A stretch of DNA of 64,000 bases, from the NCBI GenBank assembly GCA_028554795.2, contig CM068828.1, forward strand, positions 17,182,630 through 17,246,629, read 5' to 3'. The notes beneath the pieces were generated by a model, which was not told the DNA's origin, did no database searches, and saw only the letters and a program-made list of their open reading frames with translations. Each line of letters begins with the position of its first letter. The first letter of the stretch is position 1. Below are positions 8,851 through 60,729 of this stretch, piece after piece. The stretch is from Sinohyriopsis cumingii (taxonomy: Eukaryota > Mollusca > Bivalvia > Unionida > Unionidae). A program made the position numbers and the translations under genes.

Positions 8851-8856
8851 TCACGT

Positions 8857-9731
8857 TATGAATGACCTATTTAGGATATACTTTACACAAACAAACATGT
8901 CATGAATGACCTATTTAGGATATACTTTACACAAACAAACATGTTATGAATGACCTATTTAGGATATACTTTACACAAACAAACATGTTATGAATGAACT
9001 ATTTAGGATATACTTTACACAAAGAAAAATGTTATGAATGAACTATTTAGGATATACTTTACCCAAACAAAAATGTTATGAATGAACTATTTAGGACATA
9101 CTTTGCACAAACAAAAATGTTATGAATGAACTATTTAGGATATACTTTACACAAACAAAAATGTTATGAATGAACTATTTAGGATATACTTTACACAAAC
9201 AAAAATGTTATGAATGAAATATTTAGGATATGCTTTACCCAAACAAAAATGTTATGAATGAACTATTTAGGATATACTTTACACAAACAAAAATGTTATG
9301 AATGAACTATTTAGGATATACTTTACACAAACAAAAATATTATGAATGAACTATTTAGGATATACTTTACACAAACAAAAATGTTATGAATGAACTATTT
9401 AGGATATACTTTACACAAACAAAAATGTTATGAATGAACTATTTAGGATATACTTTACACAAACAAAAATGTTATGAATGAACTATTTAGGATATACTTT
9501 ACACAAACAAAAATGTTATGAATGAACTATTTAGGATATACTTTACACAAACAAAAATGTTATGAATGAACTATTTAGGATATACTTTACACAAACAAAA
9601 ATGTTATGAATGAACTATTTAGGATATACTTTACCCAAACAAAAATGTTATGAATGACCTATTTAGGATATACTTTACACAAACAAAAATGTTATGAATG
9701 AACTATTTAGGATATACTGTACACAAACAAA
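8857..9731. repeat. 44-bp minisatellite, about 20 copies
   Basis: Tandem copies of a 44-bp unit, TATGAATGAACTATTTAGGA then TATACTTTACACAAACAAAAATGT. The first three copies carry GACC and AAACAAACATG; the middle copies are nearly identical and carry GAAC and AAAAATG. Homogeneous centre and diverged edges fit recent internal expansion. It lies in intron 1 of LRR gene 1. Stops occur in every unit, so it is not coding. Confidence 0.97.
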
Positions 9732-10742
9732 AGTAACCCCGGTATTTTGGACAACCGTCATCGAAATATAAAATGGAAAATAATGGTACAACTTCAACGT
9801 TTAATTTGATACTTTTACTCCAATGAATTAACCTACCCGTCGTACATCATTCACTGAATGAATCATATTAATGCTGACATCTTTATGGCTTTATATGATG
9901 TAACTGGAGTAGTGAGTTCATATTGTAAGCACAGTGTGAAATTACACTAGTTGCTTTCAAAGGGCATTGCGAATGGCATCAGGTACTGTATAAAGAAATC
10001 TAAATGCCTTCACTAATAGATAAAGAGAGTTTCTTTTCCACAAGCTTTAATTATTGTTTGCTATTTAATACGTAATCAGTGTTAAAACTGCTGCCATGTT
10101 GATAAATCTTTTATCCTGGCAGCCGTGCGCAGGTTCCAACGTCAAAGCTGATTTCCGGTCAAAACTGCTATTTTAGTTAGTTGCTTTGAATCTTTTATCT
10201 AGGTTTATAAAATGCTATATTTGTCTTGTTGGCCTCGTATTCATTATGCGGTAAAAAAAAGTATATAATTACACATTACAACACAGACGACGTCAGCATG
10301 CGATTATATAAGTGATATTCATCCAACGCACTAATAAGCTGGCCATTCTTTGAGGGTGCTGAAAGATCGCATTACATAATTCTTCAACTTTCGACAGTTA
10401 ATGGCATGCTTTACATCTCTGAATCTTGGGAAGAAAAAAACCGCATAAAATCGTTTAAGCCTGTTGCAAAAAGATAGTTTCTTTATATGTACATTATCAA
10501 GATGTTTCAATAAATACATTTTAAATGCAGAAGTAGTTATCGTTTGTGATGCTATCTGAAACAACTTCATTGTCATTTTCGCCTTGTTTGCACACAATTT
10601 CAGGAAAAAAAAAGAACTTAGTCACATACAACAAGGCAAATTAGTATACACTTCCACAAGAATGAATAGAATCCCGTATCTGTTATGACGTTTTCTTGAA
10701 ATTACATAAATAGCTGAATGTACCTCTGCTAGTTGCGTGTCC

Positions 10743-14719: not shown

Positions 14720-14908
14720 TATACGCAACGATTGATCAAGTTAAAACGTGTTTAAGATCATAGTACTGCCAAATCACATTCCTAAAAAAGTATCAGAATT
14801 TCTTTGATTTTTTGTTGCCAACTATCCTAACTTTCAAAATATTTTATATCCAGATTTATGACCTCATTCTTACTAAAAAATGAACCTCTCTCGCATAATC
14901 CATTTCAG

Positions 14909-16206
14909 TGGTAATTGACTGCAGCTACAAGCATTTCAGTAAAGTGCCCAGACTGATAGACCCAGATGATCGCTACGATGTCCTGAACTTGGGAGGCAAC
15001 GCCCTGAATCAAATTCAAGCCAGAATGTTCGAAAATATAACTGTCCATACCATACGCTTGAACAACTGCAATCTCGGCCACATCGATGATAATGCCTTTG
15101 GAGGAATAGAACAATATCTAACTACGCTCGATTTAAGAGATAATCATCTTGGTGAAGGCATTAAATCTCTTCCAAACGCTCTTCTTCATCTCCACAAGTT
15201 ACAATACCTTGATGTCTCTGGTAACGCCTTTCGTGCAAGAGATTACACCGACCACGTCATGCGATCTATTGGTGCCAGTCTTACCACTTTCATCTTTGGT
15301 GACGATGCTACTCATAACCTCACGGAATGGCCTGCAAGTATTCGCCATCTTCAACAGCTGGTGAATTTGGACGTAGAGGGAGGTTTCCTGGTATTCCTTC
15401 CAGCGGAGGCCTTTCGTGGCTTCGAGGTAACTCTCAGGAATCTGACCTTCAATAAAGTAACCACATACACGGTACCGTTGGGAATTGCGTCGTTAAGAAA
15501 CCTGGATGAACTTCACATGGACAATCTTCGAGAATTCAGTAATTCTGGCTTAATTGAGCAACCATTCCAAGGGGTGAGTAAGACACTTAGAATATTATCC
15601 CTGAAAAACGATACATTGACCGTTTTCCCAGAGGTGATCAAAAGTCTGATCAATTTAAAAGAACTAACCCTTGATGAGAATACATTGAAGTTTGTCAGCG
15701 ACGACTCAATCTCACTCTTACAACAGAGGAATGTTACCTTTCTGAGCCTCAGATCATGTGATTTGAGTAGGGTTCCTGGCGCCATTTCCAACATCTCGGG
15801 CCTTCAGACACTGGACCTGTCTTATAACAGAATTACAAGTATCGAACAGAATGATGTACAAAACATGACCAACCTCAAAACCTTGTCGCTTGCCGGAAAT
15901 CCTCTGGAATATGTGTCAAACATGTCCTTCAGAGGCTTATATAGTCTGGAATCAATGGACCTGTCCTCGACTAGACTTACAGTCATTTCCCAAGCCATTG
16001 AGCACCTCAGTAGCCTTCAAACTCTGGATCTGAGCAACAACACAATTGACTGCAATTGCGATTTGGTTTGGTTGAAGCGATTCCTTGGCTGCACCACAAG
16101 CGCAATAAACATAAAGGGTAAATGTGAAACGATCGATATTGGAGTCCAAGATTATGTGAACACATTTATCCCAAACTGTCTCGCCTATCGCGACACTCAT
16201 TGTTAA
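14909..16206 (+). CDS. LRR gene 1: secreted leucine-rich-repeat protein, exon 3
   Basis: Main exon of a three-exon gene (with 4474-4503 and 10818-10899; total 469 residues). It starts at an acceptor, CATTTCAG, ending at 14908; the frame is closed by a stop at 14896-14898, so it must be spliced. The exon gives VIDCS (last LRRNT cysteine), about 14 LRRs with LxxLxLxxNxL patterns (for example LQTLDLSYNRI and LKTLSLAGNPL), and an LRRCT cap, DCNCDLVWLKRFLGC...GKC...PNC. Many NxS/T sites and a signal peptide, with no membrane segment or GPI tail, point to a secreted glycoprotein. Such proteins usually bind other proteins; the ligand cannot be told. It could be annotated by similarity to acid-labile-subunit-like or luciferase non-catalytic-subunit-like LRR proteins, but I assign no specific function. 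LRR gene 2 and the pseudogene at 57.7 kb are paralogues. Confidence 0.92.
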
Positions 16207-26640: not shown

Positions 26641-27900
26641 AGGTGGGATTTAAACAAAAGATCAATTTAATGTAACAATTCAGCTGGCCACTTCAGTACC
26701 GGACGCTCCTCCTGGTGTAACTGGCTGGGGAATTGGGTGCGGAGGTAGCATACAGTTTACCACTCAATGAGAGGTGTGTAACGCCAATCGCGGGCTTATG
26801 ATGCACCTACACATATCACCCAATGCAGCACCCTGTGTTATCCGGTTGTATGACACGCTAAACAATACAAAAATGCCGTTCAATTAATTACAACTAGGGG
26901 ACAGGCTAACAAACTAAATGTAAGGAACAAAAGCATCAGATGTATTTGACACGTCTTAGCGACCCAAGTACTCGGCAAAGATATCTGTCTTAACAAAATA
27001 GATTTGGCCTGAAAATAAAATAACACCATACTCGTAGCTTCAGCCATACGCTAGGAAAATGAATAAAACATAAATATAGATCAGCAAGTACCACACCCAA
27101 CCTTAACCTTACAATAAGCTGTATACCAAATAAAATATGAAACCACAGTATCATAACCCATCTAATATAGCTGGTCACTACACCACCGGACGTCCCTCTT
27201 GGTTTGACTGGGTGGGGGATTAGGTGTGGGGGCTAGTATACGGTTGACCGCTCAAATAGGGTCTGTACCGCCAAGCGCGTGCTGATGCTGCACCTGCACC
27301 TATCACCAACTGCAGCACCCTGGGTCATCAATCAGATGTTTATATAAAAAAACAATAATTTTTATTATCATCGCTAGGGTCCCAAAATCCTAAATAATGA
27401 AATTAAGGATACTAACATCTTTCCTACCGCAAGGTGACCGCAGTAAAACAAGCGCAACTGCACTACGGCACAAATTCTCTTCGAGCACTAAAACAATTAG
27501 AACACCTAGATAAGTCGAAAAAATGTAAAATATATACAGTGATCTTAAATGACCAGAACCATCAGGTCCTGCTGCACAAGGCGGCAAAGAATAACAAGTT
27601 AAGAAACTTATTATGACCAACAAATTAATGCACATTAGGTGGTCCAAACCCCAAGGACCATCAGGCCCCGCAGCACGATGCGGCAATCAAATATCTAGCG
27701 CAACTAGTTAGGACCCTAAACTTAACAACAAATCAGGTGGTCCAAATCCCAAGGACCATCAGGCCCAGCTGCACAAAGCGGCGCACCAACCAACCTAGGA
27801 AAACTAAAATAACCATACATAAAAGAGTGAACCCAATACAAGAATCACCAAACCCAAATCATACTCAATAGAAAAAGTTTAAATAATCTTTATTCTAAAA
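26641..27900 (+). repeat. LINE-associated 3' region with internal repeats
   Basis: A segment of about 175 bp occurs twice, at 26685-26870 and 27170-27345 (shared strings: ACTGGCTGGGGAATTGGGTG against GACTGGGTGGGGGATTAGGT; CACCTGCACCTATCACC; TGCAGCACCCTG). Further on, a segment with CCAAGGACCATCAGGCCC and GCAGCACAA-GCGGC occurs at about 27555, 27648 and 27748. These most likely form the long repetitive 3' UTR of the LINE just upstream. A separate repeat accumulated here is possible. No gene seen. Confidence 0.55.
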
Positions 27901-28212
27901 AGCACGAAACAGAATATATCTCCAAAATTCCGTCAGAACAATTCATTAACCTTTTGGCAAGGGAGTCAAAATGTATACCCTGGATAAACCACGGTGTATT
28001 CCTAGTGCGCTGGCTCCTCCCGGACCGAACCTTCTTCTTTGCCACCGCTGGACATTAAATTAATAATCGTGCATAGCACATGTTAAATACACGAAGGGAG
28101 AGGAACTTTTTCCTCTCTTCACGAACCATTAATGTGAAAATATAAATGGTAAAATGTTTGTGTAACTTATAGCTTACGGTTCACACAAATATAAATATAG
28201 TTTGGAGCAAAC

Positions 28213-28218
28213 TTTATT
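28213..28218 (-). terminator. Poly(A) signal AATAAA of LRR gene 2
   Basis: Minus-strand TCAATAAAGTTTGCTCCAAA about 115 bases past the stop. The same signal and context (TCAATAAAGTTGGCTTCAAA) remain at 59670 in pseudogene 3, so the 3' UTR is conserved between the two. Confidence 0.85.
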
Positions 28219-28329
28219 GACTACATATCGCCATTAAGTCTCTAGCATATGTTTCTTGTTTGTATCTGAATATGTTCAAAGAAAACTGATCATATGTACA
28301 TATGATATTTCGACTTTAGTGCCAAATTG

Positions 28330-29721
28330 TTAAGGATTACAATAGTCCTGTACACGCTTTAACGCATAATCTTGGATGCTAACTGCAATGGTCTCGCAAT
28401 CGCCATAGATTATAATATTGCGCATTTGGAGAAAATTATACAGCCAGATCATATGTTCGCAGTTGCATTCTATGATTGGCGTTGGGCCACTCAAATCAAC
28501 CACCTGAAGGTTCGGGATATTGCGGATTGCTTCCGGTACTAGGTTAACATTGGTATTACTCATTTCTAGTCTTTGCAGGGCAGAGAGGTCCCCGAACGCA
28601 CTGTTGGAAACATAAGCCACAGGATTATTGTCGAGTGTTAAATTTATCATATTAACTAGTCTTTTCAAGTCGTTTGACTCTATAGTGTGTATTTTGTTGT
28701 TTGATAGGTCCAATTCCAAGAGATTAGTCAGCTGAGAGAGGGCTCCAGGAATCCGATCAAGTCCACACTCTTGAAGGTTAAGATAAGAGAGATTTGGATT
28801 GGCTATCTTCTGTACGGAAGCATCACTCACAAACTTAAGTGGATTCTTTGCCAAACTCAGGTTTGTAACCGCTTGTAGTGTTAACAAAATGTCTGGAAAG
28901 TCAGTAAGACTGTTATTTTCTAACGTCATTGTTTTTGTAGTGTTCACCATCCCAGCGAATGCGGGGGCTAGAATTCCAGCATCGCCCACTAGTATGTTGT
29001 TATCAAAATGGAATGCCGTGACATTGTGGACATACTGGAGTGCAATCGGCACAGAAATAAGCTTCGTGGTCCTTATGGACAACTCCTGAAGGGTCCACTC
29101 GAATCCCTGAAACGCTGATATCGGTAACTCATGCATATTGCCTCCGCGGAGTTCCAACTGGCGTAGCTGCTGAAAATGACGGATGGCCGTGGGCCAAGCG
29201 TCAAGCTGCTCATATCCAAAATAAAAGGTATTCATATAGTCGCCCATTTGTCTCATTATTACATCGTTAAAACCCGAAGAAGAAATACTGTTACCTCGCA
29301 GGTCGAGGTAATACAGCTTGTTGAGTGTTCCCAGTTCCTGTGGAAGGGCAGTCAGCTGATTGTTTTCAAGGTCCAGCAATTTGAGATCATTTCTTAGATA
29401 GTTAAAAGCCCCATCTTCAATAAAGTTGATGTTATTTCCTCCAAGAAGAACCTCAGAGACGTTAACGTTCATGAAGTTGTTTACGTTGATCGCGTTTATA
29501 CTGTTGTCTCTGAGGTTTATCACCCTGTAAGACCACGGAACATAGTGTGCGGTAGGGACTCTGATCAAGTTTCTTCCTGAGCAGTCAATCACAAACTGAT
29601 TTACGCAGTGGCAGTCTGTTTTCGAAAAGGGGCAGTCTTGGGTCTCATCCCATATAACGGCATCGGAGACCATATACATCGGGCTTAGTACGAGCAGCAG
29701 GTATCCAACTCCGACCTGAAC
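28330..29721 (-). CDS. LRR gene 2: secreted leucine-rich-repeat protein, main exon
   Basis: Single large exon, 463 codons plus stop TAA (28332-28330). It starts at an acceptor, TTTTCCTCATTGTTAG, in phase 0 (a second AG lies 6 bases on, also phase 0). It opens VQVGVGYLLLVLSPMYM, a hydrophobic signal-peptide core, so the start codon must be in an upstream exon, as in LRR gene 1. An internal ATG at 29679 would lose the signal peptide. Then LRRNT CPFSKTDCHCVNQFVIDC (C-x6-C-x-C-x6-C), about 14 LRRs, and an LRRCT with ECNCEHMIWLYNFL...GDC...DYC. No membrane anchor. Unlike LRR gene 1, the cap and LRRs share one exon, so an intron was gained or lost between the paralogues. Function beyond secreted LRR binding protein is unknown. 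Confidence 0.92.
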   Translation of the reverse strand, partial: VQVGVGYLLLVLSPMYMVSDAVIWDETQDCPFSKTDCHCVNQFVIDCSGRNLIRVPTAHYVPWSYRVINLRDNSINAINVNNFMNVNVSEVLLGGNNINFIEDGAFNYLRNDLKLLDLENNQLTALPQELGTLNKLYYLDLRGNSISSSGFNDVIMRQMGDYMNTFYFGYEQLDAWPTAIRHFQQLRQLELRGGNMHELPISAFQGFEWTLQELSIRTTKLISVPIALQYVHNVTAFHFDNNILVGDAGILAPAFAGMVNTTKTMTLENNSLTDFPDILLTLQAVTNLSLAKNPLKFVSDASVQKIANPNLSYLNLQECGLDRIPGALSQLTNLLELDLSNNKIHTIESNDLKRLVNMINLTLDNNPVAYVSNSAFGDLSALQRLEMSNTNVNLVPEAIRNIPNLQVVDLSGPTPIIECNCEHMIWLYNFLQMRNIIIYGDCETIAVSIQDYALKRVQDYCNP

Positions 29722-50200: not shown

Positions 50201-52129
50201 TCCCTTTCCCAACAAAATAAATAAAGCAGAATGTCATCGCAAATCAAGGTCAGTGAAAAGACCAATGAAATAAACATGGCAATAACCCAATATAGTTAAA
50301 TAATGTAAATATATTTGAAAGTATACCTTAAAATAATTTCGCCATTTAAACACAAATAGCAATGCATAGAAAAGAAAAGGAAATCAGCAATGCTCGGGTA
50401 ACACAATAATAATAATAGGAAGAAGAAGATATAGGGTATGTATTATTCTGTTTGCGTCATATTTATAGATTTATAAAATATTAGTTATTATTTGTTTGAT
50501 TATGGGAAACCAAAGTCTGGAAGATATCTTGCAAACAGTGTAATTAGCCAATTTTAAGGTACTGTCGTCATTCGTACTGAGCCATATTGTTGGAAATGGT
50601 GACTGCATGGATTAGTTTCATCAAATGGTCCATGTCATTTTTCTAATATAAGGAAGAAATGGGATATTCTCATGCATAAGAGATAGTGTCACGTTTACCT
50701 GCCCGCGATTACGTAAGTCAGGAACAAAGGAATGGGTTAGCGCTATGTGTATGTAGACCCTGCGTCTATCGTAGCGATTCGTGTTTGTACAAGAGCCCAC
50801 TTCGTTAGGTGTCAAAACTAACATGTAGACGTTGGAAGCTTTGTTCTAGAACAAAGGACCCTCGATGTTGTTGTAAATCTCCCCGCTTTGACAGATGGCC
50901 TGAGGCTCCTCTGGATATCTGGACCGACTGGGGTAGAATTGATATCCAATCGGAACTGAGGAAGGGTGGGGCCATCAATTCGAACCAGAATTTAACAGTC
51001 ATTTGGGCTGGGAACGAATTAGTCATTGTGAAGCATCGTGCTGAGAAGTTGTAGCAATAACTCCGAGGAAGCCACTCGTGAATTGGCGGGAAATGAAACG
51101 TTGGTACATTCAAGGACAGAAAGCTTCGTAAAGGTCAGCGAGTTATTTGCTCGATTGTTGCAGAATGTTACGGCATTGTAATTGTAATTATGTGCAGTAT
51201 GTATATTTACTTACTAGAATTGTTAGTACGTATAATTACCTTTGCATTGTTTAATTTACATGCGTACTTGAGAAATGAGCTATGATTATGCAAATTGCTA
51301 GCTCGTAGTCAGAATTAATATTGTAATTCGCTATCTGTTTACTTCGTGGTAAACTAGTGTATTTATTTATATGATGTTCTAGATTTTGCAATTGTTGAAT
51401 TAAATTGTAACTTTGGAAATGGTTACAGTGTGTAAATTTAAATAATATGGATATTTGAATATTTGTGTACACTTGTGGGAGTGTAATGTACAGAAATGCG
51501 TCTGATTGTTGTGATATTGTTCAGAATAATGAGATTAAGAATATACTGATGTGACTGAATTTAGTGATGTCTGTATGATAAGTAGGATACCGCTCTTTAT
51601 TGCAACGTTGTTTTCTATAAGAACGGGTGTGGTTTTCGATGTGCACGAATGCGTGACCGAAGATATAGATAGCCTCTATATGATGACTGATTGTTGATCT
51701 AGTGTGAGCTTGATGGCTAACGAAACATGCTAACGTCCTTGTGTTTTCGCAGGAAGCTTCTGGGGACAGAATTACCGGGTAGTCAAGTCCCGAGTCTGAG
51801 AGAGACAGGATAGAACAAGGCAGTAGGCAGAGAACAAGCCTAGTTGCTAGAAATAGAGAGAGAGGAGGGGAAGGAGAAAAGGAGACAAGGAGAGTACAGG
51901 AAGAATCGGAGTACGGAGAACGCCGGAAGGAAGAAAGGAATTGGCAGACTAGAGTACAGATGAGTAGAAACCAAGTACAGGGGAAAGCCATCTCACACTA
52001 TAATCACGTGATGAAATAGGTTGTTACATGGTCGAGAGGAAGAAGACTGGTTGAGAAATTAATATCGTTTAAATTGTACTAAATTGTTATTCTTTTGAAT
52101 TTCATCTTTGTGTTCTTAATAATTTAATT
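50201..52129. other. Unassigned DNA between module B and a LINE fragment
   Basis: No gene supported. A plus-strand frame of about 81 codons at 50809-51054 (WPEAPLDIWTDWGRIDIQSE) has less A/T than its surroundings, but I cannot place it in a family. The purine-rich stretch 51790-51960 (GAGAGAGGAGGGG-like) is low complexity. Confidence 0.4.
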
Positions 52130-54125
52130 GTCGGTATTGCTGACTGAGGGCTCGGAGCGTTGATGGAAGAGGGTCTGTTGAGGATACCGTCAAAGTGTTC
52201 CGCCCAGCGATCCAGTATCTTCTCCGTCTCGGTTATGAGAGTGCTGCCATCGGAGCTCAAGAGTGGGGCTGTGCCTGATGTTACTGGGCCATAAACATCA
52301 CGAACAGCACTATAGAAATTCTTCATATCGTGTCTATCGGCAAAGGACTGTATATCATCAGCCTTTAGGCTCAGCCATGTGTCCTGCATCTCACGTAGTT
52401 TCTTCTGCACAGCTTGGCGGACTCTGCTGAAGGCATCTTTCTTTGCAGCGGACTTGGGGTCGATGTTGTATGCACGATGGAGATGATGCTTCTCCTCTGG
52501 CAGGGACTGTATTTCTTCACAGTTCTCGTCAAACCAGTCATGTTTTCGCGCAGTGAGGCCAAGGGCTTCAGATGCAGTGGAGTACAGCAGATGTTTGAAG
52601 GCCATCCAGCATTTCTCTACGTCGTTGGTATCAGAGTCTGTGGTTTCTAGCTGGCTTGTCAAAGCTTCAGACAGAGCTTGCTCATTATTGCAGACTTTCA
52701 GCCTGGAGACTTTGAGTCGTTTTGGGACTTTAATTCCCTGTGGGCGTCTGGGAGGTTGAATTTTTAGATTCATCTTGGAGATCAGTAGCCTGTGGTCTGT
52801 CCAGCAGTCAGCACCACACATGGCCTTGATCACACGGACATCCTGCCTATCATTCCTACAAACTAACATGTAGTCGATCTGATGCCAATGCTTAGACCGT
52901 GGGTGCATCCAAGTTGTTTTATTGCGGTTAGGCAGACGGAAGATGGTGTTTGTGACCAGGAGATCAAATGTTGCGCACATTCTCAAGAGTAATGTCCATT
53001 ACTGTTGCAGTTGCCAATTCCATGTCTATCAATAATTCCCTTCCACGAGATGTGGTCCGTTCCAACTCTGGCGTTAAAATCACCAAGAATGATCAGCTTG
53101 TCTGACTTTGGTACCGAAGCAATCAGAGTTTCCAGATCCTGGTAGAACTTGTCTTTGGCTTCCTCCGAGTAGGTCATGGTTGGTGCATAAGCACTAATGA
53201 GTGTGGCTTGCTTTTTTCATGTAAGGGTAGCTTCAGCATTATAAGCCGGTCATTAATTCCCTTCGGTAAGATGGAGAGCTCAGTCACCAAACTCGACTTG
53301 ACAGCGAATCCAACTCCCGACTCCCGACGTTCATCGGTGCCACGTTCACTCCAGAAAAAGGTGCAACCAGCTCCAACTTCAGTCAGTTGGCCTTCGTCGG
53401 CCAAGCGAGTTCCACTTAGGGCTGCTATGTCTATCTTGTAGCGAGCAAGTTCTCTTGCAATCAGAGCAGTTCTTCTCTCTGGTCTGTCAGCCTCTGCACG
53501 ATCCAATAGAGTGTGTATGTTCCACGCACCAAGAGTGAGCGGAACGTTTTGGGTTTCCTTTGTGTTTCGACCGCAAGAATGGGATTCCCTCCAGCCGCGG
53601 TAAGCTGGTCGGGGTAGATGAAGCAGGCTTTTTTTAGGGCACCTTTTCTAGCCCCTTCTCAGGCTATGGAGGTAAGCAGCGCTATCCTAAAGAGGTCTTC
53701 TTAGTCGCTCAGACGGCTGCCGGCATCCATTTCTGCTTCAGATCAATGGAAGACGACCATATGGCCTGAGCCGCCTGCGTGCAGGTCCGCCACTACGGCT
53801 GCCAGTGCATCCACACCTGCCGCTTCGCAGCTCGCCCATCTCCGCAGGACTTGGGTACGGGTGATGACATAAATGATTTGCGCGTGAGTTGGATTAAAGT
53901 GAGGAAGAGTTGCGCTGCGTGAGCCTCACTCTCTCGTCCAGGATCTACTTTGTCCAGTTGCAAGACGTAGTCAAGACGTCTGGAATGGAGACTGGATGCA
54001 GTGGATGACCAAGGCGTCCTACGTGTCTTGCCGTGTTCTTAGCGCTCCACGTCGCTTTGCTGGGTCCGCCTTTCTGCCCCTTGACCAGCAGGTGGTTCCT
54101 CCTCGCAGTCCGCCGGTTCCAGTCT
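52130..54125 (-). mobile_element. LINE 5' region and endonuclease ORF, 3' part missing
   Basis: The minus strand from about 54125 has a GC-richer 5' region, then [95 protein letters not shown] and a linker to SSDGSTLITETEKILDRWAE near 52150. This is an APE-type LINE endonuclease and pre-RT linker, of the kind often labelled craniofacial development protein 2-like in databases. Frame changes lie near 53205 and 52985; from 52986 to 52102 the frame is open for 294 codons. The sequence stops before the RT. An (ATT)n tract lies just upstream of its 5' end. Confidence 0.88.
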
Positions 54126-55364: not shown

Positions 55365-56950
55365 CAGTGTCTACTCGGTGCTTCTTAGTTTGTCTCTTGT
55401 ATGCATTAATGGAGCATCTCTTGTCACTGTCCAACATTAGTCTGCAAGTAATTATGGGTTCCATTTGCCCTGACAGCATTTCTACATTGTTGCAATGTCC
55501 TGGTGCTCGTCGCTCACTGCTCTGCAGTTCGGTGGAACAAAATCTAGATGAGAGTGCAAAAATGTATCTTCAATGACATGTTGCAACCAAGTATTTTGTA
55601 TGCCTTAAGGCGATTTTCCACCAACTCCCTGTAGTTGTCTGCCTTGTTATTTCCGAGCAAAATTTGTTGCCACTAACTGGAAGAATTTCCATGCCGTCTT
55701 TTCCTTAACACGCAGCGCACAGTCAAATGGATCACCTCGAAGTACTTTACGAATCTAAGGACCAACAAAAACACCTTCCTTGTCTTAGTTTCACTTGACC
55801 TTGGAAAGTTTTCACGGAGGTATTTGAAAGATGACTGCATTTTGTCCATGGCCTTGACATCAGACCCAGCCTGATATGCAAGGTTGGTAACAAAATCTTC
55901 CTTGATTCAACAAGTGGTGGATGCTGAACACTTTTTATCCTAGGCTCCAATGACTGTCGGAATTGCCAATCTCTCTTGATGTAGTGGGAACCTCTCGCAC
56001 GACTATCCTATTCGCAGAGGAAACAGCAGTACTTTGTATATCAGGTCTGCAGACCGAGCAATAATATTCAAATCGCCAAAGAGTTGCCATTGGTCATAGT
56101 TTATGCGCCTACAAAGTTGTTTCATGTTTTCATTTGTTTTCTTCGTATGGACTGCATGACCAACTTAAATAGATGGCAAAACATTGCCAGTATGCAGCAA
56201 AACAGATTTAAGACTCGCCTTCTATGAATCAATGAACAGTCTCCACTCGTCTGGATCATGAGAGCTGCCATCACACCATCGATGTTGCTACAATCTACAA
56301 GATCGTCATCCACGAAGATGAATGGGAAAAAAGCCTTTTTGGACGGTCACGGAACATGGAAACCCTAACATCACCTGCCAGGAGATTCCACTGCTGTGGT
56401 CTGGATCCCAACAGTTCTGCCGTACTTTTGGATAGTTCCAAATCCCTGACAAGATCATTCAGTTCACCTTGTGTTATAAGATGTGGTTCAGAGGAGGATG
56501 GGAGAAACTATGGGTCATATGACACTGATGGTTCAGGACTAGAAGTTTAATCCTCTTCCTCGCCTGACTCAAGTGAGGATGATTCTGGTGCATCAGGAAC
56601 CGGCAGGCTTTCTCGGTGGGGTACTGGGCGTATAAATGATGCAATGTTCGGATAATGCACAGTCCACTTTTTCTTCTTTGACACACCTTTCCCAACTGTA
56701 GGCGCCACGCAGAAGTAACAATTGCTGATATGATATGCTGGCTCTCTCCAAATCATTGGCACTGCAAAGGGCATATATTTCCGTTTCCGGTTCAACCACT
56801 GGTGATGATTTGCTTCACAACTGCTGCAGCATGTGTGTGTGGCCCACCTCTTGTCCTGATCTCCAATTCTGCGGCCAAAATAAAGGTGATAGTCTTTCTT
56901 AACCATAGTGGTTATACTGCATCACTTCATCACATAGTAGAAGTTATCTG
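55365..56950 (-). pseudogene. Broken copy of a multi-copy invertebrate gene of unknown function
   Basis: The minus-strand segments, in order, are DYHLYFGRRIGDQDKRWATH, RKRKYMPFAVPMIWREP, CYFCVAP, KKKWTVHYPNIASFIRPVPH, LVRDLELSKSTAELLGSRPQ, QLFGDLNIIARSADLIY, ILLPTLHIRLGLM and FLHSHLDFVPPNCRAVSDE. From memory these match a large uncharacterised protein family found in many copies in cnidarians, insects and fish. Its copy number suggests a mobile-element origin, but I cannot name a transposon family. The cysteines and histidines at the N-terminal end look like metal-binding sites. The reading frame is interrupted several times, so this copy is dead. A short piece of a second copy lies at 57693-57737. 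Confidence 0.65.
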
Positions 56951-57692: not shown

Positions 57693-57737
57693 TTGTGGCG
57701 ATTTGAATATTCTTGCTCGGTCTGCAGACCTGATATA
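57693..57737 (+). other. Fragment of the 55-57 kb family, in opposite orientation
   Basis: GGCGATTTGAATATTCTTGC then TCGGTCTGCAGACCTGATAT ACAA is the reverse complement of about 56038-56081 with one mismatch over 44 bases. Both encode GDLNI-ARSADLIY. It joins directly to the first recognisable LRR sequence, so an insertion of that family replaced the 5' part of the LRR pseudogene. Confidence 0.75.
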
Positions 57738-58660
57738 CAACGAGGCTGTTATCAATCACAGGAATGAATTCAAATTGCTGGACCTTAAGAACAATCGATT
57801 GCCTTTTCTACCACTCGAAATTGGAACACTCACCAATTTGGAGTTCCTCGATTTGCGAGGAAAAAATACTTCCGCACAAGAATTCAACATACAGTAATGA
57901 GACAAATGGGTGAATATATCAGGACGTTTTATTTTGGCTATGATCAACTCGACGCTTGGCCCGAACCCATCCGCCATTTAAAGCAACTACGCCAAACTGA
58001 ACTACACGGAGGCAGTATATCTGAGTTACCGATATAAGCATTTCAGTGATCGGAGTGGACCCTTCAGGAGTTGTTCATACGGAACACAAAGCTTATTTAT
58101 GTGCCGATTGCTCTCCAGTATGTACACTGTTTCCAGATCTTCGATTGTGATGACAACACACTCGTTGGCAATACTAGAATTGTGGTCCCTGTTTTTGCTG
58201 GGATGGTGAACACCGTAAACACACTGACCCTAGTAAATGATTGTCCTACCATTATCTAGATATCTTGTGAACACTTCAGGCCGTACAGAACCTGAGTTTG
58301 CCAAGGCCAGCACAATCCTTAACCTGGAGAAGTGTGAACTTAATCGGATTCCTGGAATCATATAACAGCTGACTAGCCTCCAGGATTTGGACTTGTCATG
58401 CAACCGAAAATACACCATAGAGAGAAACGACGTTCAGCAATTTGATAATCTTACTCTTGTACCGGAGTCAATCAGAAATATCCCACGCCTTCACGAATTT
58501 GACTGAGTAACACGACTCCAAAGACAGAATGCAACCGCGAACGTATGATCCGGATGTATTATCATCTCAAAACAAGTATCAATCTTAATAGCAACGTTAC
58601 AATCTATGGACAGTGCGAGACCATTGCTGTCAGCATCGGGCATTATATGCATGGAATCGT
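57727..58660 (+). pseudogene. LRR pseudogene 3 (paralogue of LRR gene 2)
   Basis: Matches LRR gene 2 from its third LRR to its last cysteine cap: FKLLDLKNNRLPFLP, MRQMGEYIRTFYFGYDQLDA, EWTLQELFIRNTKLIYVPIA, ALQYVHCFQIFDCDDNTLVG, FAGMVNTVNTLTLVN, YGQCETIAVSI. The signal peptide, LRRNT and first LRRs are absent. There are frameshifts near 57890, stops near 58036 and 58048 and at 58257-58259, and more decay after 58260, where similarity becomes patchy. Nucleotide similarity to LRR gene 2 is still high in 57900-58230, so inactivation is later than the duplication. Its 3' end runs into the 50-bp array and a conserved 3' UTR. Confidence 0.88.
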
Positions 58661-59587
58661 GTACCCAATGACTGCATTCCTTGACAATTTAGCATTATGC
58701 ATGGGATCGTGTACCCAATAACTGCATTCCTTGACAATTTAACGTTATTCATGGGATCGTGTACCCAATAACTGCATTCCTTGACAATTTAGCATTATAC
58801 ATGTGACCGTGTACCCAATAATTGCATTTCTTGACAATTTAGCGTTATGCATGGGATCGTGAACCCAATAACTGGATTCCATGACAATTTAGCGTTATGC
58901 ATGGAATCGTGTACCCAATAACTGCATTCCTTGACAATTTAGCGCTATGCATGGAATCGTGTACACAGTAACTGCATTCCTTGACAATTTAGAGTTATAC
59001 ATGGGATCGTGTACCCAATAACTGCATTCCTTGACAATTTAACGTTATGCATGGGATCGTGTACCCAATAACTGCATTCCATGACAATTTGGCGTTATGC
59101 ATGGAATCGTGTACCCAATAACTGCATTTCTTGACAATTTAGCGTTATGCATGGAATCGTGTACCCAATAACTGCATTCCATGACAATTTAACGATATGC
59201 ATGGAATCGTGCACCCAATAACTGCATTCCTTGACAATTTAGAGTTATAAATGGAATCGTGTACCCAATAACTGCATTCCTTGACAATTTAGAGTTATAC
59301 ATGGGATCGTGTACCCAATAACAACATTCCTTGCCAATTTAGTGTTATGCATGGGATCGTCTGCCCAATAACTGCATTCCTTGACAATTTAGAGTTCTGC
59401 AAGGGATCATGTACCCAATAACAACATTCCTTGACAATCTAGCGTTATGCATGGGGTCTGCCCAATAACTACATTCCTTGACAATTTAGAGTTCTGCAAC
59501 GTATCGTGTACCCAATAACAATATTCCTTGACAATCTAGCGTTATGCATGGGATCGTCTGCCCAATAACTGCATTCCTTGACAATTT
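58640..59587 (+). repeat. 50-bp minisatellite made from the end of the LRR gene
   Basis: About 19 tandem copies of a 50-bp unit (GCATTATGCATGGGATCGTG then TACCCAATAACTGCATTCCT TGACAATTTA). In LRR gene 2 the single-copy equivalent is GATTATGCGTTAAAGCGTGT ACAGGACTATTGTAATCCTT AACAATTTGG, which encodes the final residues, the stop codon and the first UTR bases. So this array amplified the terminal codons, stop and UTR start of the pseudogene. The last copy leads into 3' UTR sequence matching gene 2. One copy near 59441 is slightly shortened. Confidence 0.92.
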
Positions 59588-59710
59588 AGCGTTACAATCA
59601 GCCTTCCCTAAACATGTTCAGATACAAAGAAGATATTTATGCGTGTGATTTAATACGATATATGTAATCAATAAAGTTGGCTTCAAACTATATTTATAAT
59701 TGTGTGAAAC
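59588..59710 (+). terminator. Conserved 3' UTR and poly(A) signal of LRR pseudogene 3
   Basis: CATGTTCAGATACAAAGAAG, then TCAATAAAGTTGGCTTCAAA (AATAAA at 59670-59675) and TATATTTATAATTGTGTGAA match the gene 2 3' UTR (minus strand 28290-28160). Confidence 0.85.
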
Positions 59711-60729
59711 TTTAACTATAGGTTAAATAAACATCACACCAAATAAATTGTCCCATTTCTCAAGCTCAGTATATATATATTCATATATGACAAAGACAAA
59801 GTTTAAAATGTAAATGATACGCCTTTCATGTAATATTTCTAATGAAATATGATAATTTGATTTACATATGGCATTACCCCCATCATATAACTGGATCCAC
59901 ATCAATAGATCGATTATTCAAAACGATTAGACATATGGAACAAAAAAACAATATTGCAATCATTTACTTTCTTATAAAAATATGAAATAACTCCATTTTC
60001 AAAGATTTGGGAGCATGATGGAAAAATGGTTGATCTGGAGCACCTCACACAACTTCTTAGCTGTAACGTCGATTAAAAACGGTGCTGACCAGCTTTCTGC
60101 CAACCTCAAGTCCGAATAAAGTAATTTTACAGGTCGTTTGACCACTGACAATACACGTTTATATTAAATGCTGTAACTCACTTGATACTTAACTAGAGAT
60201 TGTAGTCATGTGATAATTAAGGGATTTGTGTTGTAAAATTAAACATTTTTCACTTTTATACAAACTTGTTGTCATTGCATCGTTTAAATACATTATTTGT
60301 CTCTTTAAATACACATGTATACCATTTTGTTGGTCAACAAAATGCAACAGAAACATTTATTGTATGCTAACATAACATTTTCTTCCTTTGATCTTATGTT
60401 TGAGTCAAAGTCACTTGAACGCTTGCGATACACACGTGCTATACGTTGAATGATCCGTAAAATCGATCTGATTGTAACTGATCTCTGTATTATATGGCGG
60501 ATAATATGAGAAATTAATGAAAGGTGGAATGTATACATATTCCTCCTGCCAAACCATGCAGTAAATGTATTTATGTCAGCAAGGATAACAAACAAACTTT
60601 ACTAGATTTTTATAAACTGTAAGCTTTGATTATTCTTTAACTTTTGACAGTTCGCACTAAGTACAATAGGTGATATCGACTGCAATCAACGGTTTGGGTT
60701 TGGTGAATGAATTAAGGGCAGCTGGTTAA
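59711..60729. other. Intergenic DNA
   Basis: About 1 kb of AT-rich spacer with no recognised gene or repeat. Confidence 0.45.

Follow-up and report, generated by a model that had tools for sequence, protein, structure and literature searches.

A minisatellite very probably born in place from the stop-codon end of an LRR pseudogene in the bivalve Sinohyriopsis cumingii

We describe a tandem array of 19 copies of a 50-bp unit that very probably arose in place: an LRR gene was duplicated, one copy decayed into a pseudogene, and the stop-spanning end of that copy was amplified in tandem. Minisatellites are tandem arrays with a unit of tens of bases, and their origin is often lost. Here the source sequence, the site, an unexpanded paralogue and a late expansion step are all readable within 64 kb, and the stop codon within the unit is a clear mark of coding ancestry. 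The window, by which we mean the whole stretch of 64,000 nucleotides that was analysed, comes from Sinohyriopsis cumingii (GenBank assembly GCA_028554795.2, contig CM068828.1, positions 17,182,630 to 17,246,629 of the forward strand); positions below count from its first base.

The array occupies 58646-59594 on the plus strand, where TRF reports a period of 50, 19.0 copies, 87 % matches and a score of 1429. Cut into individual copies, which run to 59592, it comprises 18 units of 50 bp and one (copy 17) of 47 bp, with a mean pairwise divergence of 12 %. With 19 units of 50 bp standing head to tail at a single locus, it is a minisatellite. An earlier note on this DNA had placed the array at 58640-59587 and called it a satellite arising from the coding end of a gene; the array is real and so is the amplification of a coding end, while the boundaries shift by a few bases and minisatellite is the better term for the one locus shown. 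Each unit corresponds to 13 codons of the LRR gene, including the stop, followed by 11 UTR bases. The TGA stop trinucleotide is present in 18 of the 19 copies and reads TGC in copy 14. Copy 1 (58646-58695, plus strand) adjoins the LRR body of the pseudogene, and an extra TA at this junction, seen by eye, puts the upstream LRR frame out of step with the frame of the unit.

Two intact paralogues lie in the same window. Gene 2 is an open frame of 463 codons, stop to stop, on the minus strand (28330-29721), and gene 1, the more distant paralogue, is found on the plus strand at 14899-16206. Both are LRR genes by their matches to Pfam LRR_8 (gene 2, E 3.4e-27; gene 1, E 2.9e-34), and their proteins are 37.8 % identical over 418 positions. 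Comparison of gene 2 with solved structures returned many LRR proteins and nothing specific among the best 60 of 298 matches. By eye, cysteines near the C-terminus may fit the pattern of an LRR C-terminal cap; no cap family is among the Pfam hits.

On comparison with gene 2, the locus that hosts the array is a broken LRR paralogue, a pseudogene. Its body (57744-58645, plus strand) is homologous by blastn and tblastn to residues 110-452 of gene 2, the N-terminal part being absent, and aligns in blastn pieces of 75.7 % (564 bp), 69.3 % (192 bp) and 75.4 % (114 bp) identity. At the protein level, tblastn with gene 2 gives five pieces in frames +1, +3, +2, +1 and +3, and the alignments display five in-frame stops and a 34-residue gap. 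For the N-terminal 109 residues of gene 2, tblastn at E values up to 1 found no match in the window besides gene 2 itself and gene 1, which aligns to gene 2 residues 44-452. Mismatches between pseudogene and gene 2 by codon position amount to 66/284, 55/282 and 83/284 (chi-square p 0.024), a weak third-position excess that could be explained by constraint on gene 2 alone. Upstream lies a 45-bp inverted repeat (98 %; 56034-56078 and 57696-57740), whose right arm stops three bases short of the pseudogene's homology to gene 2; both arms can be read as the peptide GDLN-I/L-ARSADLIY. The 5′ part of the pseudogene may have been lost in an event of which this repeat is a trace.

On the far side of the array the homology resumes, as the earlier note had claimed in joining the array to a conserved 3′ UTR. 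The segment 59597-59757 (plus strand) matches the 3′ UTR and downstream sequence of gene 2 at 28290-28131 (blastn, 77 % over 161 bp). The two loci share an AATAAA, at 59670 in the pseudogene and 28218 in gene 2, and because the homology passes this signal by about 80 bases the pseudogene was probably copied at the DNA level. Retrocopying was considered and judged unlikely, since a processed pseudogene is at odds with these additional bases and with an end that by eye carries no A-run. Further AATAAA motifs in the pseudogene, at 59726 and 59742, would allow a later cleavage site.

The link between the array and the coding end comes from the unit itself. Cut from its TAT codon, the unit consensus has an ungapped counterpart at 28368-28319 (minus strand), with 33 of 50 bases identical; the aligned stretch is the last 13 codons of gene 2, including the stop, and 11 UTR bases. 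The earlier note had proposed precisely this homology, with the last codons, the stop and the first UTR bases, and it is borne out by the alignment, although the counterpart that it gave (28379-28330) was 11 bases off. When the consensus is placed without gaps at each of 1,773 positions across gene 2 and its 3′ flank (27900-29721), the second-best score is 24 (mean 12.8, SD 3.1), and none of 100,000 single-letter shuffles of the consensus scores 33 at the homologous place. Read in the frame of gene 2, the consensus gives YAWDRVPNNCIP followed by the stop, and the gene 2 protein ends in YALKRVQDYCNP followed by the stop, with Y, A, R, V, C, P and the stop in common (7 of 13 codons). Mismatches between consensus and gene 2 number 3, 4 and 7 at codon positions 1, 2 and 3, a pattern only suggestive of coding ancestry. 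The identity of 66 % is lower than the approximately 76 % of the main LRR block, which counts against the explanation that we prefer. Gene 1 was tried as a second witness at the DNA level and rejected, 901 of 1,000 shuffles matching its end as well; P-N-C is common to the peptide ends with gene 1, by eye only.

Considered alone and position aside, the match of the unit is not overwhelming, because one shuffled consensus in 200 also scored 33 at some place in the window. One could imagine that a pre-existing dispersed minisatellite or mobile element with a 50-bp unit entered the pseudogene at its end and resembles gene 2 by coincidence. Arrays are certainly common here, about 10 % of the window lying in tandem arrays of period 19 or more (16 of the 19 TRF loci with a period of at least 19, judged by eye, three short ones being left out). 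Such an insertion is, however, extremely improbable: the array occupies exactly the homologous place, the unit matches the coding end gaplessly and in frame at a level that no shuffle equalled there, and an ungapped search of the rest of the window on both strands found no second locus of the unit, the best place reaching 29/50. Chance similarity to gene 2 can for practical purposes be excluded, because both flanks are collinear with gene 2 and because, in the reverse search direction, one blastn piece spans the LRR body through copy 1 (58447-58697, 68.3 % over 252 bp). The array thus shows both features expected of a gene-derived tandem repeat, homology beyond chance to a genic single-copy sequence and an unexpanded state in a paralogue.

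Since the array sits where gene 2 has one copy, its ancestor is the pseudogene's own single-copy coding end, and gene 2 is a sister paralogue preserving the unexpanded state rather than the source. Of the earlier proposal that the single-copy ancestor is kept in the same window, the single-copy state in gene 2 therefore stands and the role of gene 2 as ancestor does not. A single copy is the likelier ancestral state because TRF lists no array at the ends of gene 1 or gene 2. The opposite history, in which the LRR group had the array from the start and gene 2 lost all but one unit, draws on the ability of tandem arrays to contract to one unit through unequal exchange; we consider it very unlikely, since it would require two losses and since mean divergence among the copies is only 12 %, compared with 34 % for the consensus and gene 2, although conversion could also keep copies alike.

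The copies themselves preserve part of the history of growth from a single unit. At the right end, 59346-59592 (plus strand) forms a higher-order repeat of two units, in which copies 15, 17 and 19 share variants at unit positions 16 and 18, and copies 16 and 18 share variants at positions 2, 7, 28, 29 and 44 (28 and 29 also occurring in copy 14, and 29 in copy 17). Both groups are recovered in a tree of the copies, with support of 89/92 for 15/17/19 and 95/91 for 16/18 in a bootstrap that has not settled. Copies two units apart diverge least (mean 0.096, permutation p 0.0002), and divergence between copies increases with distance (permutation p 0.016). Likeness to gene 2 drops from left to right, from 35/50 in copy 1, the highest value and equalled by copy 6, to 27-31 in copies 15-19 (Spearman -0.73, p 0.0004, the copies not being independent and the 3-base gap of copy 17 counted as mismatch); within the first 14 copies the gradient is not significant (p 0.08). 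In our reading, the stop codon anchors the array, which expanded late at its right end. A phylogeny of the copies, which the earlier note had expected to give the order of expansion, thus resolves the two-unit step and little else, 10 of its 17 inner branches being open, and 50 columns are too few to recover the full order.

The array could be a functional, length-variable 3′ UTR element of an LRR locus that is still transcribed: copy 1 carries the coding end and stop, so that in a transcript the remaining 18 copies would be UTR, and AATAAA follows downstream at 59670, 59726 and 59742. The upstream LRR frame is nevertheless broken by stops and frame changes, and variants among the copies, 24, 13 and 12 per codon position, give no sign of coding constraint inside the array; we accordingly hold such a role to be most improbable. 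The array is most likely neutral, and we propose no function for it.

Homology, position, the single copy in gene 2 and the two-unit structure are shown by the data above; the mechanism, and the order of amplification relative to decay, we infer. An LRR gene was very probably duplicated at the DNA level, and one copy, now at 57744-59757, decayed into the pseudogene. In this copy a segment made of the final 13 codons with the stop and of 11 UTR bases would at some time have been tandemly duplicated, and unequal exchange, slippage or conversion would have brought the array to 19 copies, the last growth step probably being the two-unit expansion at the right end. A duplication across the stop would have left the protein unchanged, copy 1 retaining the coding end and stop and the other copies becoming 3′ UTR. 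Expansion would thus be tolerable even in a live gene, because only the 3′ UTR lengthens. It is a more speculative, and in our judgement unlikely, extension that the stop-spanning duplication did arise in a still-active gene, shielded by copy 1, and that stop codons are a tolerated entry point for minisatellites that may recur in other LRR paralogues here.

The standard account of minisatellites starts from a local tandem duplication that then grows by unequal exchange, conversion or slippage, as given in the part of the literature drawn on here (PMC3389668). The same source presents the model of Haber and Louis, which likewise has a local duplication followed by expansion and in which the initiating duplication occurs between flanking direct repeats of 5-10 bp. 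The ends of our unit, by contrast, have only about 3 bases in common (TTA, by eye), so that the first duplication is not assignable to slippage between direct repeats.

Other sequences of the window may be noted. An array of a 44-bp unit at 8855-9732 (20 copies, 97 %) is very uniform and looks younger than the 50-bp array, and an array of 86 copies of a 31-bp unit (1-2660) begins at base 1 and so may extend past the edge of the window. On the minus strand, 52102-53647 is probably the remains of a non-LTR retroelement: an endonuclease-like piece at 53177-53647 matches Exo_endo_phos (E 3.5e-05) at 24.1 bits, just below the Pfam cut-off of 24.5, whereas a further open frame (52102-52998) has no Pfam match. 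An open frame at 56547-56921, also on the minus strand, carries the paired cysteines CCSSC and CYFC and may resemble a dispersed invertebrate protein family. Scans of the window with Rfam at gathering scores and with ARAGORN gave no hits. Searches of viral contigs with the gene 2 protein and a 32-base piece of the unit found no relatives, in a virus-only collection that is little informative here.

Satellites from genic single-copy sequences, minisatellites at coding ends and repeats that differ between paralogues are already known; the difference here is the stop codon in the unit. As far as the portions of the sources used here describe them, three systems come close. The CapA satellite of New World monkeys derives from an intron of NOS1AP (PMC7210261, PMC8210747) and, like our array, represents a genic single-copy sequence that was amplified in tandem and persists unexpanded elsewhere; its unit of about 1,500 bp is intronic and in one species accounts for about 5 % of the genome, whereas the array described here has a 50-bp exonic unit that spans a stop codon, is known from one locus and is compared with a paralogue in the same window. 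The CEL VNTR is a minisatellite in the last exon of the human carboxyl ester lipase gene (PMC8692231), thus also at a coding end, but its 33-bp unit is translated as 11-residue repeats ahead of a unique C-terminus, whereas our unit includes the stop and only copy 1 is translatable. In human paralogues, internal tandem repeats in coding or UTR parts alter gene structure and, as here, differ between paralogues (PMC2812944); those repeats lie in transcripts, whereas the host here is a pseudogene, and the term 'stop codon' is absent from the main text of that paper. The available part of a satellite DNA review (PMC5615363) has nothing on coding-end origins, and a literature search, with most subscription journals outside its coverage, found no description of a minisatellite from a stop-codon region among the matches listed.

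The array is a clear but ordinary example of the birth of a tandem repeat, a process that is well known, and it offers a good teaching case rather than a surprise. Because about a tenth of the window lies in arrays, array birth seems common in this stretch of the S. cumingii genome, and the array at 58646-59594 stands out by its recognisable source.
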